From: a virus
Strand: one strand, 5' to 3'
Length of the DNA stretch: 40,497 nt
IMG/VR virus record: IMGVR_UViG_3300005577_000016
Coordinates: 1-40,497 of that record
In this document: positions 1 to 40,497 of the stretch, in pieces
How positions within the stretch are numbered: position 1 is the first letter of the stretch
Layout of the letters: each line of letters opens with the position of its first letter
Translations under genes and position numbers: made by a program
The notes under the pieces: model-generated
Seen by the model: the letters and a program-made list of their open reading frames with translations, nothing else
What the model was told of the DNA's origin: nothing
Databases searched by the model: none

Positions 1-253
1 TGGCGGTATCGATATCGAGCCGATCTTTCTTTGTGGGCAGGGTGCTATGGCTTACGTCATGGGCCAGATGCCGCGCCCGACGCAGCTTGAAGACGGCGAC
101 TACGAATTCGTTACCGGTATGGGTATTGAAGCGCAATACGGCGTCGGTAAGATTGCTAAGGCGCCGCTCGCTATTGGCGCTGCCGCTACCGCAGGTGATC
201 TTGTCGATTGGGGCATGGTTACGGGCTTTGTCGCTGGCGTTGCTAACGCCTAA
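1..253 (+). CDS. Major capsid protein, C-terminal part (continues from 39451..40497)
   Basis: This is the end of the capsid gene that starts at 39451. Because bases 1-100 repeat the last 100 bases of the window, the first full codon here (position 2, Gly) corresponds to the one at 40399. Joined across the circle, the gene encodes 399 residues. The last stretch is Gly/Ala-rich and ends in VANA. It is followed within 10 bases by a strong hairpin with a T-rich tail, which should end or reduce transcription after this heavily used gene. An ATG at 47 is internal and not a start. Confidence 0.93.
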   Translation, partial: GGIDIEPIFLCGQGAMAYVMGQMPRPTQLEDGDYEFVTGMGIEAQYGVGKIAKAPLAIGAAATAGDLVDWGMVTGFVAGVANA

Positions 254-1370: not shown

Positions 1371-2803
1371 TGGTTGATATCGTATTCCCAAATAGCACTA
1401 GCCCCGGAAACCGCCCCGCCGAAAGTTCGGGGCGTTTGATTAATTGCTTTGCTGCAAAGCTTGATGATGGCGCTCGAAATTCGTATGCACGCCGCCGTTC
1501 CCCTGGGCTTGCGCTTATTGTGGACACAACTATCCAGATTGGGCGCGGTGCACATTTCTATAATGGTGTTCTATACGTTGCGCAAAAGGATGAATTATCG
1601 AAAGTCTACATTGACGGTATTACGGGTAATTTCGTAACGTCTATTTTAGGTTCGCTTCCGGGCGAAAAGCGCGTAACATTCGCTCGAAATAATAAGGCCC
1701 CTATTCCTGATATCCTTTGCGTTACCGAGAATGATGTTTACATTATAACGGACAGCGCACCTCCTACAACTCTTGGTGCTGGAGATTTGCCGCAGCCATT
1801 GTCTGTTACATTCATTGATGGGTATTTCGTATTTCCTATCCGTGATGGGCGTTTCTTCTTTTCTGGTATTAACGATACGACGATTAATGCACTGGATTTC
1901 GGTAAAGCCGAAAGCCGCCCAGGCGGCTTGTTTAATGCCGTTACATATGGTGAGCAATTACTACTAGGTGGCCCATCTACTATTGAGGTGTGGAGCAACG
2001 CGGGTAATGCTACCGGTTCGCCGTTCTCGCGCACGACTGTTATCCAAAAGGGTCTTGCATCGACATTTGCTGTTGCCGGATTTGAGGAAGGTTTTTCGAC
2101 CATTGTATTTGTTGGTGATGATAACGCGGTTTATCGTCTAGACGGCGGCTACCAGCCAACACGCATTAGTAACGACGATCTAGACCAATTGATTGCTGAG
2201 ACAGCGGATAAAACGCAGCTCGACGTAAATGTTCACGTCACCCTTGGTCGTATGTGGGCAACAATCACCGGCCCGAAGTTCTCGTGGACCTATGACATTG
2301 GCGCGGGCCTCTGGCATGAGCGCAAGAGCTATCTATGGCCGAATTGGCGAGCCATAGTGTCGATCAAGGCATTCAATGGGGATTGGATAGCCCTAGACCG
2401 CGAAAACGGCTCCGTGTGGCGCATAGACGGCTCCGTGCTGAAGGAAGGGACCGCGCCCCTGGTTATGGTCGCGCAATCTCTGCCGATGGCACAATTCCCC
2501 AATCGAGCGCTCTTTCCGCGTGCCGATTTCGATATCATTGTAGGGCAGGCTAAAGTAGCGGGTGAGCAGCCTATAGACACAGACCCGGTTTGTCTTATAA
2601 GGTGGTCGGATGATGGAGGCGTTTCGTGGAGTGAGCCTTTGCGGAGAAGCTTAGGTAAAACTGGTTTCTACAGTACGCCAATTTCGATTAATCGCACTGG
2701 AATGGCAGGGCGTTACGGTAGAGTTTGGGAAGTGTCTATTTCCGACCCTATTTACGCTTCAATTTTAGGCGGTAGTGTAACAACGCAGGGGCTTGCCCGC
2801 TAA
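1370..2803 (+). CDS. Packaged-DNA stabilization / tail protein, P22 gp10-like (477 aa)
   Basis: The length (477 aa) is close to P22 gp10 (472 aa). The sequence has the gp10 pattern: an N-terminal Asn-Cys-Phe stretch (LINCFAAKL), then repeated beta-rich modules with aromatic pairs such as GYFVFPIRDGRFFFSGI, IVFVGDDNAVYRLDGGY and SWTYDIGAGLWHERKSY. In P22 this protein plugs the portal channel and anchors the tailspikes. It overlaps both neighbours by the TAATG arrangement. No frameshift or truncation is seen. Confidence 0.8.
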   Translation: MVDIVFPNSTSPGNRPAESSGRLINCFAAKLDDGARNSYARRRSPGLALIVDTTIQIGRGAHFYNGVLYVAQKDELSKVYIDGITGNFVTSILGSLPGEKRVTFARNNKAPIPDILCVTENDVYIITDSAPPTTLGAGDLPQPLSVTFIDGYFVFPIRDGRFFFSGINDTTINALDFGKAESRPGGLFNAVTYGEQLLLGGPSTIEVWSNAGNATGSPFSRTTVIQKGLASTFAVAGFEEGFSTIVFVGDDNAVYRLDGGYQPTRISNDDLDQLIAETADKTQLDVNVHVTLGRMWATITGPKFSWTYDIGAGLWHERKSYLWPNWRAIVSIKAFNGDWIALDRENGSVWRIDGSVLKEGTAPLVMVAQSLPMAQFPNRALFPRADFDIIVGQAKVAGEQPIDTDPVCLIRWSDDGGVSWSEPLRRSLGKTGFYSTPISINRTGMAGRYGRVWEVSISDPIYASILGGSVTTQGLAR

Positions 2804-2964
2804 TGGCTTCGCAACTTCAACCGTTAACGCCGTTGCCGCAACCACAAGCGCCTATTGTTGATAGCAATACCGGTCTTGTTAGTAAATCTTGGTATGAATA
2901 TTTAAAACGTTTAGATCAACACATACGCGAAATTGAAGCGCGTCTTACCGCAGGCGGTCTATAA
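2803..2964 (+). CDS. Small conserved neck/tail-region protein (53 aa)
   Basis: The protein reads MASQLQPLTPLPQPQAP..., with a Pro/Gln-rich N-terminus and an amphipathic C-terminal helix (SWYEYLKRLDQHIREIEARL). Start and stop overlap the neighbouring genes by TAATG on each side, which supports it being translated. Short proteins with a Pro-rich start and a W-YxYL helix are common at this place in podoviruses of alphaproteobacteria. The function is not known; a neck or ejection-protein adaptor is possible. Confidence 0.75.
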   Translation: MASQLQPLTPLPQPQAPIVDSNTGLVSKSWYEYLKRLDQHIREIEARLTAGGL

Positions 2965-3653
2965 TGGGCTTTTTCGATTTTCTTACTGGTAGTAATATCG
3001 GTAAAGCGTCAATGAACGCTTTGAATAATAATAGTCAAATTCTCACTAACCTGCAAAACGCAGGTAATTCTATTATTAATACTGGCGAGCAACAGTCGTC
3101 GGGCGCGCTTAATCAGGCGTCGAATAACTACAACCCGTATCTTGCAACGGGTAGCGCAGCGACCACGATGTACGGCAACGCTCTAGGGTTGAACGGGGCG
3201 GATGGTACGCAAGCAGCGCAGAACGCGTTTCAAGCGGGTCCTGGTTATCAATTTGCATTAGATCAAGGAACACAAGCAGCGTTGCGCGGTTCATCAGCGG
3301 CTGGTATGTTGAATTCCGGTAATACACTAACAGCTCTCCAAAAATACGGAACGGGCTTAGCTAACCAAGAATATAATAATTGGTTATCTAATCTGTCTGG
3401 CGCTTCCGGTCAAGGACTAAGTGCAGCAAGCGGTCAAGGTGGAGCGCTTAGCGGGCTTGCAAACTTGTATCAAGGAACTGCGAATGATCGTCTTGGTCTG
3501 GAAAGCGCAATCGCGCAAGGCAGGCAAGGCATTAATACAGACGCCGCAAAGGTTAAGGAACAGCAAGCGCAAAATAGTAACTCGTTCTTTAGCAATCTGC
3601 TTGGCGGCGGGTTGAGCCTTGGTACTAAAGCGTTGACTGGAGGGCTGTTTTAG
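2964..3653 (+). CDS. Putative DNA ejection (injection) protein (229 aa)
   Basis: The protein is rich in Gly, Asn, Ala, Ser and Gln, starts with a short hydrophobic helix (MGFFDFLTGSNIG), and ends with a Gly/Leu-rich hydrophobic stretch (FFSNLLGGGLSLGTKALTGG) that may insert into membrane. This composition and the position match the first of the three P22-type ejection proteins (gp7/gp20/gp16 class), which leave the virion and help DNA cross the envelope. The stop overlaps the next start (TAGTG). Confidence 0.65.
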   Translation: MGFFDFLTGSNIGKASMNALNNNSQILTNLQNAGNSIINTGEQQSSGALNQASNNYNPYLATGSAATTMYGNALGLNGADGTQAAQNAFQAGPGYQFALDQGTQAALRGSSAAGMLNSGNTLTALQKYGTGLANQEYNNWLSNLSGASGQGLSAASGQGGALSGLANLYQGTANDRLGLESAIAQGRQGINTDAAKVKEQQAQNSNSFFSNLLGGGLSLGTKALTGGLF

Positions 3654-11360: not shown

Positions 11361-14216
11361 TTAATCAGACTTACCCCAATTAGGACCGTTATTTTCATCT
11401 GCGAAAATAGGAATACGCAATTTAATTGTGTTTTCCATCGTGTGTTTGATAAAATCATACGCCTCTCTCATGCGGGGCGTATCGTCTATTACGGAATGGT
11501 CCGTTTCGTCATGCACGGTAATCGACGGAACTCCCGTAACATCGTAAACGCCTGATTGCCAGCAAGCACGCATAGCCGATTTCATGATATCCGGCTCGCT
11601 ACCTTGGAACTTATAGTTCACGCCTCGATACTCGTATGCGCGGCGAATTCCAGCCCCCCATTTGCGTATTGCTAACTCATATGGAAGTGGCATTTCAGGG
11701 TTATCGAAATCGCGGCGTATCGGTTCCCAATAATTAAAACGAATGCGCCTCCCTAGTAAGGTTGTAACGTATCCGTACTGTTGCACCTCCTTGCCGATCT
11801 CCTCCATGGTCGCTTTAACGTATGGAGCGCCCGCGTGATAGCTCTTAAAGAAGTCTTTAGCTTGCGCTTCACTCATACCCGATTTATACGCGAGCGACTT
11901 CTCAGATTGGCCATAAAGCAACCCGAAATTAACGTTTTTAATTGGACGACGCTTTAGCTTAATTTCTTCCTCATCCGTGAGTGACCAGCCCATGAGCGGA
12001 GCGACGTTTCTGTAAACGTCCATATGATAATCGGTCGTCTTATCGTTACGGTAACGTTCACGAAGCGCTTCAGCAGAGCCATCACCTCTATCGACTGCAT
12101 AATGTGCGAGCAACCGGTAATGGATTTGCGAGAAATCGAACTTACGCCATTTAATGTGTCCTACATCGGGAACGAAGCATTCGCGCACTTTCTTGCCGAG
12201 CTTAGATCGCGAGGGAATGTTCTGCAGGTTTGGCGTTGATGAATTATGCGAATAAATTCCACAAGCAGAATAACTTTCATCTTCTTCGACTGTTATGTCA
12301 TAGACAAGAAAGCATCCCGCAAAGTTAATTTCTTCAACTGTAACGATTTGCTGTCCTGAACTTGCAGTAAATGAATAGTTTTGTGCCCCGCTGGGGTTAC
12401 CAGCGCAAGATTGTCTAGTTCGTTGTTCATCGGATCGCCATCTATATGATGCACGTGAAAGTATTCCGGTAGCTTTGCTAGCCACAATGCTTGTGCCATT
12501 TTCACTCTGTGAACAAATTGACGTTCCCCATTGTGCATTATTGTCAAGTAGCCTTTTTGGTCGCCAACCTCTCCAATCCAATTGTGATGTTGTGAACCCG
12601 TCTTCCCCGTCATTGGATTGTTGTCGCCCATTTTCGAATACGAGTAACGAAGCGCTGCTAAAGCTTTCTTCTCCTGTTCCGGCATATTCATTTTCACGAC
12701 ATGCGATACATTGTGAAAGGTCGTTTGCAGGGTAATCGCTATTTCCTGTAATGTCATCAGTCCTCGATCTCGATATAATTCCAGCACGCGCGCAATATTC
12801 TCGGGCTGAGACACCCATGTCTTTGAAATACTCATCCGCAATTTTCTCCACAGTTAGCCATTCGCCAGACGATGCTAGCACTCTATGGGATATTGTGCAA
12901 GTGAGAATATACCCATTGCTGAATTTTATCGAAAGCATGGGCTCTGCGCCCTTTACCCATGTTTTTAGTACACGCCTAAACCGACCTTTATGTGTTTTAA
13001 CTTTGTCTCCTGCGTTAATTTCATCAATACGTTTAGGACCATTAGATGTATCGATCTCAGTATGAGCAGCTACGCACGCAAATCGCCCCACCATTGTTCC
13101 GTTTTCATCGCCCTTCAATTGATGAAATTGTGGGTAAAGGTATCCGTTAATATGCTGCCCGAAGATGTAGCTATCGAAGAATGTGCCCACAATCTTCTCA
13201 TGCTCGCGGATTTCGTTGATTAACTCTGCCGCAGGATGATCCAGACCAGCGAGCCATTCCTTACGAATAATGTAATTACCGGTATCATTATTCTTGAGCA
13301 TTGGTATTCCAATGCGTTCTAAAACTGGGCCGATTTGCTGTGTTGCAGTTGAATGAATTCGTTCATATTGATAAGCGAATTTCTCGTATAGTTCCGCCGT
13401 TTCAATTATCAGCTCTTGCCGTATCTGTGCAGCTTTATCTAAGTCAACGCGCACGCCACGGAAGCGCATAGCAACTATCAGCGGTATAAGATCGCATTCT
13501 AAGCGAAAGACGTTGTGCAATCCTTCATGCCACAATATATGTTCTTGCTGTGCATAGATATCGAGCGGTTGAAGTGCATCGCCTTCACCATAAAAACCTA
13601 CGAGTTTAGGCGACGTACGATAGATTTCACGGCGCAAAAACTTCTCTGGCGTATTAGGATACGCTTCACGTATCCACTTGTACATCGCATCTGTTTCTTT
13701 ACCGCGATTGAGATACTTGTTCGCCATTGCGTCTAGGCCGACGAGAGCGTCACTATCTATCAATGCTTCGGCAAATGAGCAGTCAAACAATCTACCGCCG
13801 ACGCGCACGCCTTCAGCTTTAAAAGTACCGTAATCGTATGTGAGATTTACACCAATCTTGTCGGTTAGTGTATTAAGCGCATAATCCGCGAACGCAAGAC
13901 AATTGCGCGCGTCCATATTCAAATGAGGATCAACCTCATGTCGAATAGGGAAATACCACGCTTTTCGCTCGCCATTGAATGCTTCAGCACCGATAGAGAA
14001 GCCCACAATATGGCTATCGTTACGCGCCCATCCTGGGCCGTTATCGGTGAGGCGTAAGTCTTTCGTTTCGGTGTCGAATGAAATACGCTTTGCTGCCGAT
14101 AGGTTCGGGAATTCGGTCGGCGGGTGCCAGCCGGTCCCTGGTATTGTGGGTAATGGACGCAGGCGCGCGTCTTTACGCTTAACTAGCGGTTCATCAAAGA
14201 ATAGACCTGCTTGCAT
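11361..14216 (-). CDS. DNA polymerase, family A, interrupted by an intein (951 aa precursor)
   Basis: Removing the intein (codons 381-658, 12243..13076) leaves about 673 residues. The N-terminal part is a 3'-5' exonuclease domain (SFDTETKDLRL). The polymerase domain has the TPNLQNIPSRS motif, motif A (KFDFSQIHYRLLAHYA), motif B (KRRPIKNVNFGLLYGQS, with the R-K-F-Y spacing intact) and motif C (TVHDETDHSV). Motif A has His where most family A enzymes have the Glu steric gate. The start chosen is ATG 14216, seven bases after the upstream gene's stop codon begins; a longer TTG start at 14267 would overlap that gene. This is the phage replicative polymerase and the last gene of the leftward operon. 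Confidence 0.9.
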   Translation of the reverse strand: MQAGLFFDEPLVKRKDARLRPLPTIPGTGWHPPTEFPNLSAAKRISFDTETKDLRLTDNGPGWARNDSHIVGFSIGAEAFNGERKAWYFPIRHEVDPHLNMDARNCLAFADYALNTLTDKIGVNLTYDYGTFKAEGVRVGGRLFDCSFAEALIDSDALVGLDAMANKYLNRGKETDAMYKWIREAYPNTPEKFLRREIYRTSPKLVGFYGEGDALQPLDIYAQQEHILWHEGLHNVFRLECDLIPLIVAMRFRGVRVDLDKAAQIRQELIIETAELYEKFAYQYERIHSTATQQIGPVLERIGIPMLKNNDTGNYIIRKEWLAGLDHPAAELINEIREHEKIVGTFFDSYIFGQHINGYLYPQFHQLKGDENGTMVGRFACVAAHTEIDTSNGPKRIDEINAGDKVKTHKGRFRRVLKTWVKGAEPMLSIKFSNGYILTCTISHRVLASSGEWLTVEKIADEYFKDMGVSAREYCARAGIISRSRTDDITGNSDYPANDLSQCIACRENEYAGTGEESFSSASLLVFENGRQQSNDGEDGFTTSQLDWRGWRPKRLLDNNAQWGTSICSQSENGTSIVASKATGILSRASYRWRSDEQRTRQSCAGNPSGAQNYSFTASSGQQIVTVEEINFAGCFLVYDITVEEDESYSACGIYSHNSSTPNLQNIPSRSKLGKKVRECFVPDVGHIKWRKFDFSQIHYRLLAHYAVDRGDGSAEALRERYRNDKTTDYHMDVYRNVAPLMGWSLTDEEEIKLKRRPIKNVNFGLLYGQSEKSLAYKSGMSEAQAKDFFKSYHAGAPYVKATMEEIGKEVQQYGYVTTLLGRRIRFNYWEPIRRDFDNPEMPLPYELAIRKWGAGIRRAYEYRGVNYKFQGSEPDIMKSAMRACWQSGVYDVTGVPSITVHDETDHSVIDDTPRMREAYDFIKHTMENTIKLRIPIFADENNGPNWGKSD
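12243..13076 (-). other. Intein in the DNA polymerase (278 aa)
   Basis: The inserted block begins with Cys (codon at 13076) in CVAAHTEIDTSNGPKRI, a typical intein block A. It has the block B motif TCTISHRVLASSGEW, and ends with VYDITVEEDESYSACGIYSHN followed by extein Ser. These are the nucleophile, TxxH and His-Asn/Ser residues needed for splicing. It splits the polymerase between GRFA and SSTPNLQNIP, a conserved substrate-binding motif. The middle ~180 codons have no recognisable endonuclease in this frame, because the same DNA encodes an HNH protein in the +1 frame. Confidence 0.85.
12293..12835 (-). CDS. HNH homing endonuclease nested out of frame inside the intein (180 aa)
   Basis: This gene lies wholly within the intein and is read one base forward of the polymerase frame. 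The ATG at 12835 has a GGAG ten bases upstream; a TTG six bases earlier is a less likely start. The protein has an N-terminal helix-turn-helix-like part (LMTLQEIAITLQTTFHNVSH), a NUMOD3-like motif (YSKMGDNNPMTGKTG, about 66-80), and an HNH_3 core (HVHHIDGDPMNNELDNLALV, then H151). It should cut intein-free polymerase alleles and so spread the intein. It is the only convincing protein in this stretch, yet the polymerase frame stays open across it. Confidence 0.85.
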   Translation of the reverse strand: MSISKTWVSQPENIARVLELYRDRGLMTLQEIAITLQTTFHNVSHVVKMNMPEQEKKALAALRYSYSKMGDNNPMTGKTGSQHHNWIGEVGDQKGYLTIMHNGERQFVHRVKMAQALWLAKLPEYFHVHHIDGDPMNNELDNLALVTPAGHKTIHLLQVQDSKSLQLKKLTLRDAFLSMT

Positions 14217-14220
14217 TATC

Positions 14221-14385
14221 TCACTGCTCAACTTTGCGCGGTTTACCGGCAGCTTTCCACGATGCAACAGCTTCTAGCCAGCTTTCAGCTTCATCTAGAG
14301 CGTCTTCTGATATTCTCACCTCACGCTCAATTTGTTCGTCAGTCATAGCGTTAAAATCCGCTTCATACTCTTTCCACGCTTCCAT
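14221..14385 (-). CDS. Small hypothetical protein upstream of the polymerase (54 aa)
   Basis: This is an acidic, helical protein (MEAWKEYEADFNAMTDEQIE...). It has a good ribosome site (AGGGG, 7 bases before ATG) and lies between the clamp-like gene and the polymerase, four bases from the polymerase ATG, so the two are probably translationally coupled. The function is not recognised. Confidence 0.7.
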   Translation of the reverse strand: MEAWKEYEADFNAMTDEQIEREVRISEDALDEAESWLEAVASWKAAGKPRKVEQ

Positions 14386-39450: not shown

Positions 39451-40497
39451 ATGGCACTGACAGTTAATCACCCAAATAATGAACTTATTAAATTTCGAAC
39501 TGATGTTGCGCTAGACTTCCTTCGCCGTTCGCGTTTCGACCCCTATATGGGCAATGATAGCACCTCTATTATCGTCCGCATGGCCGATCTTGAGGCAGAC
39601 GGTAAGGAAATTCGTATTCCGCTCGTTACGCAGCTTTCCGGCGACGGCGTTGGCGCTGGTACCCTTCGCGGTAACGAAGAGCAGATTGACAGCTACGGTA
39701 TGCCTATGTGGGCAGATTGGGCACGTAATGCCGTCGCTAACAACCGCGCCGTCAATAAGGAAAGCTCTTTCTCGATCCGTTCTACGGCTCGTCAGCTTCT
39801 TCGCAATTGGGCAAAGCGCATTGTGCGTGATGACCTTACCGACGCTCTGCTTTCTATCCCCACATCGACTATCCAGGCAAATCGCTTTCAAGCACCGGGC
39901 AACCGTGTTAACGGCGTCAAGTGGTCGCTTGCCACGACTGCGCAGAAGAACGCTTGGACAACTGCGAATTATGACCGCGTTGTGTTCGGTAGCTTGATTT
40001 CCAACTATTCGACCACTTTCGCTACCGCTGTTGCCAACGTCAATAACACGACTGGTAAAATGACGGCTGCTGTTGGCTCGCTCCTGAAAGCGCAGGCAAA
40101 ACAGTCCGGTGTTGATCCGAACAACCCCGGCGTTTACAACGGTCGTCCGAAGATTACGCCTTGGCAGCTCGAAGATGACGATCAAGAATGGTACGTCTGC
40201 TTCCTTGGCTCTCGCGCCTTCCGCGATCTTCAAGCGGACCCGGTTATGTATCAGGCTAACCGTGATGCTCGCGAACGTGAAAGCAACCCGACCAGCAACA
40301 ACCCGATCTTTACGGGCGGCGAGCTGATCTTTGACGGTATCATCTACAAGGAAATTCCGGAAATTACGCAGCGTCTTCTCCTGAAGGGTGTAGGTTCTGG
40401 CGGTATCGATATCGAGCCGATCTTTCTTTGTGGGCAGGGTGCTATGGCTTACGTCATGGGCCAGATGCCGCGCCCGACGCAGCTTGAAGACGGCGAC
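39451..40497 (+). CDS. Major capsid protein, N4 gp56/DUF4043-like (window-end part; joins 1..253)
   Basis: The protein starts MALTVNHPNNELIKFRTDVA. The conserved stretch KEIRIPLVTQLSGDGVGAGT, LRGNEEQIDSYGMPMWADW, RNAVANNRAVNKESSFSIRS and RQLLRNWAKRIVRDDLTD is the pattern of N4 gp56/DUF4043-type capsids (HK97 fold). Total length with the part at 1..253 is 399 residues. It follows the scaffold gene and has GGAG 11 bases before the ATG. The last 100 bases of the window are the same as bases 1-100. Confidence 0.92.
   Translation, partial: MALTVNHPNNELIKFRTDVALDFLRRSRFDPYMGNDSTSIIVRMADLEADGKEIRIPLVTQLSGDGVGAGTLRGNEEQIDSYGMPMWADWARNAVANNRAVNKESSFSIRSTARQLLRNWAKRIVRDDLTDALLSIPTSTIQANRFQAPGNRVNGVKWSLATTAQKNAWTTANYDRVVFGSLISNYSTTFATAVANVNNTTGKMTAAVGSLLKAQAKQSGVDPNNPGVYNGRPKITPWQLEDDDQEWYVCFLGSRAFRDLQADPVMYQANRDARERESNPTSNNPIFTGGELIFDGIIYKEIPEITQRLLLKGVGSGGIDIEPIFLCGQGAMAYVMGQMPRPTQLEDGD
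40398..40497 (+). repeat. Terminal redundancy: same 100 bases as 1-100
   Basis: Bases 40398-40497 match 1-100 exactly, inside the capsid gene and in the same reading frame. This is most simply the overlap of a circular assembly. It is not a biological terminal repeat, because the repeat cuts a gene at a random codon. Confidence 0.95.

Follow-up and report, generated by a model that had tools for sequence, protein, structure and literature searches.

An HNH endonuclease gene nested out of frame in a phage DNA polymerase intein, with relatives in other inteins and in group I introns

In the usual description, an intein is a single protein whose splicing and nuclease domains share one reading frame. 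The DNA polymerase gene of the stretch analyzed here (the window, 40,497 nucleotides, a 40.5-kb phage contig) raises the question of whether the nuclease of an intein can instead be a separate gene, read one base forward of the polymerase frame between the two splicing halves, or whether this appearance arises from an error, a relic or an intron. By translation, the first ~100 nt of the window (1-100) are repeated at about 40398-40497, and because its ends repeat the contig is probably complete, and either circularly permuted or terminally redundant.

The polymerase intein and the gene inside it

The polymerase frame (14267-11361, minus strand) is unbroken across the 278 intein codons (13076-12243). 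A sequence-only reading of this locus had described the open frame with its Cys1, block B His and C-terminal His-Asn/Ser residues, and its coordinates were right. The parts of the precursor are as follows.

11361-14267, minus strand: precursor of the phage family-A DNA polymerase, which includes a 3'-5' exonuclease domain and into which the intein is inserted (matches to DNA_pol_A at E 2.2e-53 and to DNA_pol_A_exo1 at E 2.1e-5)
13077-14267, minus strand: N-extein, C-terminal end MVGRFA, placed by alignment to the intein-free relative L016
12243-13076, minus strand: intein of 278 codons, C1...H277-N278 and then Ser+1, defined by splicing motifs, the absence of 834 bp in L016 and a mini-intein fold
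12837-13076, minus strand: N-terminal splicing half, intein residues 1-80 (pLDDT about 80-90; the nested start of the family lies 78-87 codons into the intein)
12354-12836, minus strand: host-frame linker, residues 81-241, a by-product translation of the nuclease gene (residues 85-241 at pLDDT 30-40; host-frame identity equal to third-frame identity)
12243-12353, minus strand: C-terminal splicing half, residues 242-278 (confident model; TIGR01443 over cutoff)
11361-12242, minus strand: C-extein, first residues SSTPNLQNIPS, placed by alignment

The polymerase exteins also match DpoZ, a model of aminoadenine-incorporating polymerases, with E 1.8e-59 but far under its cutoff. In the IMG/VR relative L016 the polymerase, at 86-91% DNA identity, is without exactly the 834 bp of the intein, and its empty-site junction reads GGGCGCTTTGCG joined directly to TCATCAACTCCAAAC. 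Because precisely those bases are missing, the insert is a clean mobile unit.

The window carries the landmarks of a class 1 intein (Cys1, block B TCTISH and C-terminal SHN, then Ser+1), and the nucleophile Cys1, the block B TxxH and a C-terminal His-Asn followed by Ser, Cys or Thr are invariant in seven homologues. Its score to TIGR01443, which represents the C-terminal splicing motif, is over cutoff; the matches to Intein_splicing, Hint_2 and TIGR01445 are significant, yet under their own cutoffs. An AlphaFold model of the intein is confident at residues 1-84 and 242-278, with pLDDT 30-40 at residues 85-241, and matches mini-inteins, the best being the gp41-1 intein (TM 0.84 by target length, E 1.8e-6). 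Judged by this model, a Hint splicing fold is present and the host-frame linker is predicted to be disordered. The nested gene, listed below with its landmarks, occupies this disordered stretch of the model almost exactly.

12293-12835, minus strand: nested HNH_3 homing-endonuclease gene in the +1 frame, 180 codons from ATG plus stop (HNH_3, E 1.4e-8; phrog_7545, E 6.9e-18; 12 invariant family residues; model pLDDT 86.9)
12386-12475, minus strand: HNH_3 core of the nested protein, by Pfam match (residues 123-152 of the 182-aa form)
12846-12849, minus strand: GGAG Shine-Dalgarno sequence inside N-intein codons, ending 10 nt before the nested ATG

The nested ORF (12835-12293) is offset one base forward of the polymerase frame and lies between the splicing halves. 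Its HNH_3 match exceeds the Pfam cutoff, which bears out the description of a 180-codon gene with its own GGAG and ATG and an HNH_3 core, and the 10-nt distance from GGAG to ATG is slightly long. The NUMOD3-like motif also claimed for this protein stands as a conserved NPMxGK core in relatives, but the domain match itself is weak (E 0.017, under cutoff). All of the 12 residues that are invariant across 19 homologues are retained. The model of the nested protein comprises a helical, HTH-like N-terminal part as well as an HNH domain, and its nearest solved fold is I-HmuI (1u3e), with modest scores (probability 0.98, E 0.075, Z 6.6 over 74 residues); PDB sequences searched with the HNH profile gave no match at E 0.01. 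As the endonuclease is not fused in the polymerase frame, the criterion for a canonical bifunctional intein is not met.

Conservation of the arrangement and the reading of both frames

Relatives were obtained by a profile search of IMG/VR with the nested HNH. A single-sequence search with the same protein gave only one weak jumbo-phage match, a scan of genome contigs found no relative, and direct searches of IMG/VR with the whole intein and for a Rhodobacteraceae terminase intein returned nothing, the back-translated patterns being too strict for inteins. Seven relatives from the profile search all lie out of frame inside a family-A polymerase intein, with the same offset as the window (HNH identity to the window 57% in L029, 55% in L032, 52% in L030, 49% in L031, 45% in L033, 37% in L034 and 35% in L038; L032 is partial, a contig end cutting the locus). 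All share with the window the insertion motif GRxx[C...HN][S/C]xxPNLQ, with a shift of about one residue in L034 and L038. The search for related inteins with +1 HNH genes that the sequence-only reading had called for was thus answered by seven polymerase relatives at one motif, together with L047 (162-1124), where a second polymerase intein site (PNLQQ/C...HN/CPSKT, slashes marking the intein ends) also has a nested HNH in the +1 frame. Equal frame offsets in independent contigs also exclude, in practice, the indel error that would have refuted the arrangement.

The nested start has the form M/V-S-I/V-S/N and lies at a homologous position, 78-87 codons into the intein. A Shine-Dalgarno sequence (GGAG, GAGG or AGGA) is found upstream of it in all seven polymerase members with sequence there, the window included, against a background of 8% of ATG and GTG codons in host ORFs. 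Separate production of the endonuclease, inferred earlier from the window alone, is well supported by this conserved start and Shine-Dalgarno sequence and by the catalytic residues, and remains an inference without product data. Between the window and L029-L033 the HNH proteins are 45-57%, the splicing domains 35-50% and the polymerases 20-27% identical; for the window against all the other polymerase members the corresponding figures are 36-56%, 30-49% and 20-32%. Splicing domains and HNH are therefore more alike than their host polymerases, which fits horizontal movement as a unit.

The two frames of the overlap are conserved in different ways. Of the two, it is the HNH frame that is conserved (45-57% for the nearer members), with codon position 2 more conserved than 1 and position 1 more than 3, whereas host-frame amino acids are no more similar than those of the unused third frame. 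It is therefore the nuclease protein that is conserved; the intein loop has only to lack stops. When the HNH protein was recoded with the phage's codons, the polymerase frame held 15.2 stops on average and was open in none of 200,000 recodings; permuting the nested gene's own synonymous codons gave a mean of 9.4 stops and none open in 5,000. The other off-frame of the nested gene contains 19 real stops. A T at the third position of an HNH codon creates a polymerase-frame stop where the next codon starts AA, AG or GA, and in the window such a T occurs at 0 of 43 of these sites versus 41 of 137 others (P 4.1e-6); with eight loci pooled the counts are 0 of 377 versus 251 of 1035 (P 1.5e-38). The proposal that selection keeps both frames thus holds insofar as third positions avoid polymerase-frame stops, but no particular linker sequence is kept in the host frame, and the substitution comparison that had been suggested returned a conserved HNH frame and a host frame that is merely open. 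Intron-borne HNH homologues (L005-L019), being free of the host-frame constraint, have 10-26 stops in the frame corresponding to the open polymerase frame. That the polymerase frame of the window has been purged of stops argues that its mRNA is translated through and not RNA-spliced.

Relatives in introns and in other phage genes

Among annotated phages, 13 of the 13 best-ranked HNH relatives examined (L005-L015, L017, L019) split a DNA polymerase gene, and several of the polymerase-splitting relatives have a recognizable group I intron (RF00028). The intron sites, SNP/NLQN or SNPNL/QN, are 12 or 18 nt downstream of the intein site. A more distant HNH relative, L018, likewise splits a DNA polymerase gene; it is phage Pf-WMP3, which encodes I-PfoP3I. 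That enzyme nicks 4 nt upstream of its intron site and requires a 14-bp stretch downstream of the cut (PMC3428280). Transferred to the window, this specificity, together with the Pf-WMP3 intron site, would place recognition as follows.

12220-12233, minus strand: inferred nuclease recognition stretch, codons for TPNLQNIP (assuming I-PfoP3I specificity, PMC3428280, and the Pf-WMP3 intron site)

Recognition of this kind would lie wholly in the C-extein, so that the intein would not destroy its target and the intein-plus allele could itself be nicked. I-HmuI and I-HmuII cut intron-plus and intron-minus genes alike (PMC3428280).

A tree of 40 HNH proteins places the intron-borne copies in one group (95/97; the group includes one free-standing long-branch row), beside the intein-borne L034 and L038. 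This tree replaced a first one built without IMG/VR members, in which the window HNH had stood on a long unsupported branch. As far as these sequences can tell, it suggests few switches of carrier; the direction of switching hangs on a root that is itself weak, and no clade test gave a rejection. With intron-borne and intein-borne copies at one polymerase motif, one nuclease lineage has therefore used two self-removing carriers. The reading from the window alone had missed both this presence of the same HNH family in group I introns at the same polymerase motif and the fact that the arrangement is widespread.

Beyond the polymerase inteins, 48 of 80 IMG/VR loci have the HNH within a longer ORF in a different frame on the same strand, and 42 of these 48 match Intein_splicing. 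Hosts of the 48 are mainly terminase large subunits (Terminase_6N, 18; Terminase_3, 14) and seven polymerases. Most loci among L050-L108 are terminase large-subunit inteins whose HNH gene is read in the -1 frame (host offset 1), an offset opposite to that of the polymerase class; the terminase locus L068 has the polymerase-type offset. Across 39 non-polymerase loci with the other offset (L054 left out) there are 0 stops versus 70 expected after synonymous permutation, a result that is merely supportive and partly ascertained because the loci were chosen for an open overlapping frame. In the published phages LS06-2018-MD07, TJE1 and Highwayman, all three of the GenBank cases examined, the out-of-frame nested gene in the terminase is unannotated. 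The nested arrangement of the window is neither an artefact nor unique.

Some further overlaps of other kinds were seen. Gordonia phage Barsten gp15, a head morphogenesis protein, has a 206-codon LAGLIDADG-like ORF, unannotated and antisense to the intein (L003, 1594-2214, minus strand), the motif having been recognized by eye. A 966-codon ORF in L107 (983-3880, minus strand) lies over an HNH ORF of the opposite strand (2482-3396, plus strand), possibly another antisense arrangement.

Competing explanations and known systems

Our preferred explanation, in which we place strong though not complete confidence, is a mobile, class-1-type polymerase intein that consists of a mini-intein and, in its loop, an independently initiated gene for an I-HmuI-type HNH homing nuclease in the +1 frame. 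The splicing domain would be a mini-intein of about 80 + 37 residues with the complete HNH gene in its loop. Ribosomes coming from the polymerase start would read straight across the nuclease gene, which in their frame yields about 157 residues of disordered loop, and splicing of the precursor would give active polymerase; other ribosomes would initiate internally on the same mRNA, at the GGAG-ATG, and make the nuclease. The nuclease would then nick or cut polymerase genes that lack the intein, close to the conserved SSxPNLQNIP codons, and repair of the cut gene would copy the intein in. The anatomy, empty allele, conserved architecture, stop avoidance, intact catalytic residues and intron-encoded kin are established by computation; protein splicing, nuclease synthesis by internal initiation, cleavage near SSxPNLQNIP and homing are inferred, without experimental support. 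Besides this lack of experiments, three points count against the explanation: with I-PfoP3I specificity the target would survive the intein, the GGAG-ATG distance is slightly long, and the path from 10-26 off-frame stops to zero without killing the polymerase is unexplained.

The nested protein could be made and yet serve another role, for example as a regulator or DNA-packaging helper, in an intein that no longer homes. HNH proteins do have further roles in phages and cutting of the target lacks experimental data, but the association with mobile introns and inteins at one polymerase motif across unrelated phages, and the existence of the intein-minus sister phage L016, make such a role unlikely. 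Programmed frameshifting, giving a fusion of polymerase, N-intein and HNH in place of internal initiation, is physically possible, the HNH frame being open 12-81 nt upstream of the ATG in the family. Against it, the start codon is at a homologous position with a Shine-Dalgarno sequence in every member that has sequence there, and in four of seven members the upstream opening is merely 12-21 nt; we regard it as unlikely too, and slightly the more so.

Two further possibilities carry very little weight. The nested gene might be the dying remnant of an in-frame fusion, shifted by two compensating indels, or a product of sequencing error, and in-frame HNH nucleases do exist in other inteins, being fused in those of a ribonucleotide reductase-like and a RecA-like protein (L098 and L106). 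A displaced in-frame gene would, however, expose the polymerase to about 10-15 stops; the catalytic residues are all intact, the start and Shine-Dalgarno sequence are conserved, and the offset is identical in independent, diverged contigs, which makes this very improbable. That the insert is a group I RNA intron with an HNH gene, its intein motifs incidental, is hardly credible. The closest HNH relatives, other intein-nested copies aside, are indeed in polymerase group I introns, but an Rfam search of 11800-13500 gave no match even at E 1 and hence no detectable group I intron, the insert starts with Cys and ends with His-Asn, the modeled fold is Hint, and the polymerase frame is without the stops that intron-borne homologues carry. 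Sequencing error, RNA intron and decayed fusion were rejected on these grounds.

The nearest described elements are the ShiLan domain and the Pacc40 gp60 insertion (Arsenault, Gosselin & Gogarten 2025, PMC11855218). Like the window insert, ShiLan is open in the host frame of a phage gene, has an HNH endonuclease in another frame and shows a disjunct, homing-like distribution. It differs in that no splicing domain was found and the insert is thought to stay in the methylase, whereas the window insert has the full set of splicing motifs of an intein; ShiLan sits in a methylase and no Shine-Dalgarno sequence was found for it (PMC11855218), whereas in the window one is present and the host is a DNA polymerase. 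At L054 (1790-3703) we observed a DNA methylase ORF that contains an HNH in another frame; no intein end motif is visible, and the locus resembles the ShiLan element.

The same paper states that overlapping reading frames are frequent in actinobacteriophages, citing Gosselin, Arsenault & Gogarten (bioRxiv 2025, doi 10.1101/2025.01.02.630785). By its title, that preprint concerns actinobacteriophage inteins of 'non-canonical architecture', which may follow the same principle; the window family is from other phages and is in DNA polymerase. Priority for the principle of an out-of-frame intein nuclease may therefore belong to the preprint. Its content aside, text searches of the literature turned up no account of an intein that contains a nuclease in another frame.

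The intron enzymes I-HmuI, I-BasI and I-PfoP3I, the last a biochemically proven nicking enzyme, belong to the same HNH family as the window nuclease (30-40% identity to phage intron copies) and to the same polymerase motif, and like it are encoded with their own start inside a self-removing element; their carrier, however, is an RNA intron 12 or 18 nt downstream, and no open host frame is overlapped (PMC3428280). Large inteins of the PI-SceI type share with the window a nuclease between the splicing halves that drives homing (in the window an inference), but theirs is fused in frame, whereas the window nuclease is a separate protein of another frame and the loop its shadow translation.

We consider it probable, with appreciable doubt remaining, that nesting of a nuclease out of frame is common and conserved among the inteins of uncultivated phages, goes largely unannotated and has arisen at least twice (polymerase, +1; terminase, -1), that one polymerase-targeting HNH lineage resides in two unrelated self-removing carriers, group I intron and intein, at nearly the same site, and that the overlap is held by anti-stop selection in the host frame. 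Because the nested gene is unannotated in the three GenBank terminase cases examined, 'inteins without endonuclease' may be miscounted. With the nuclease as a separate overlapping gene, its production and that of the polymerase can be uncoupled, and two selfish strategies share the same DNA. In the polymerase family one nuclease lineage is both intron-borne and intein-borne at one motif, which makes the change of carrier directly testable.
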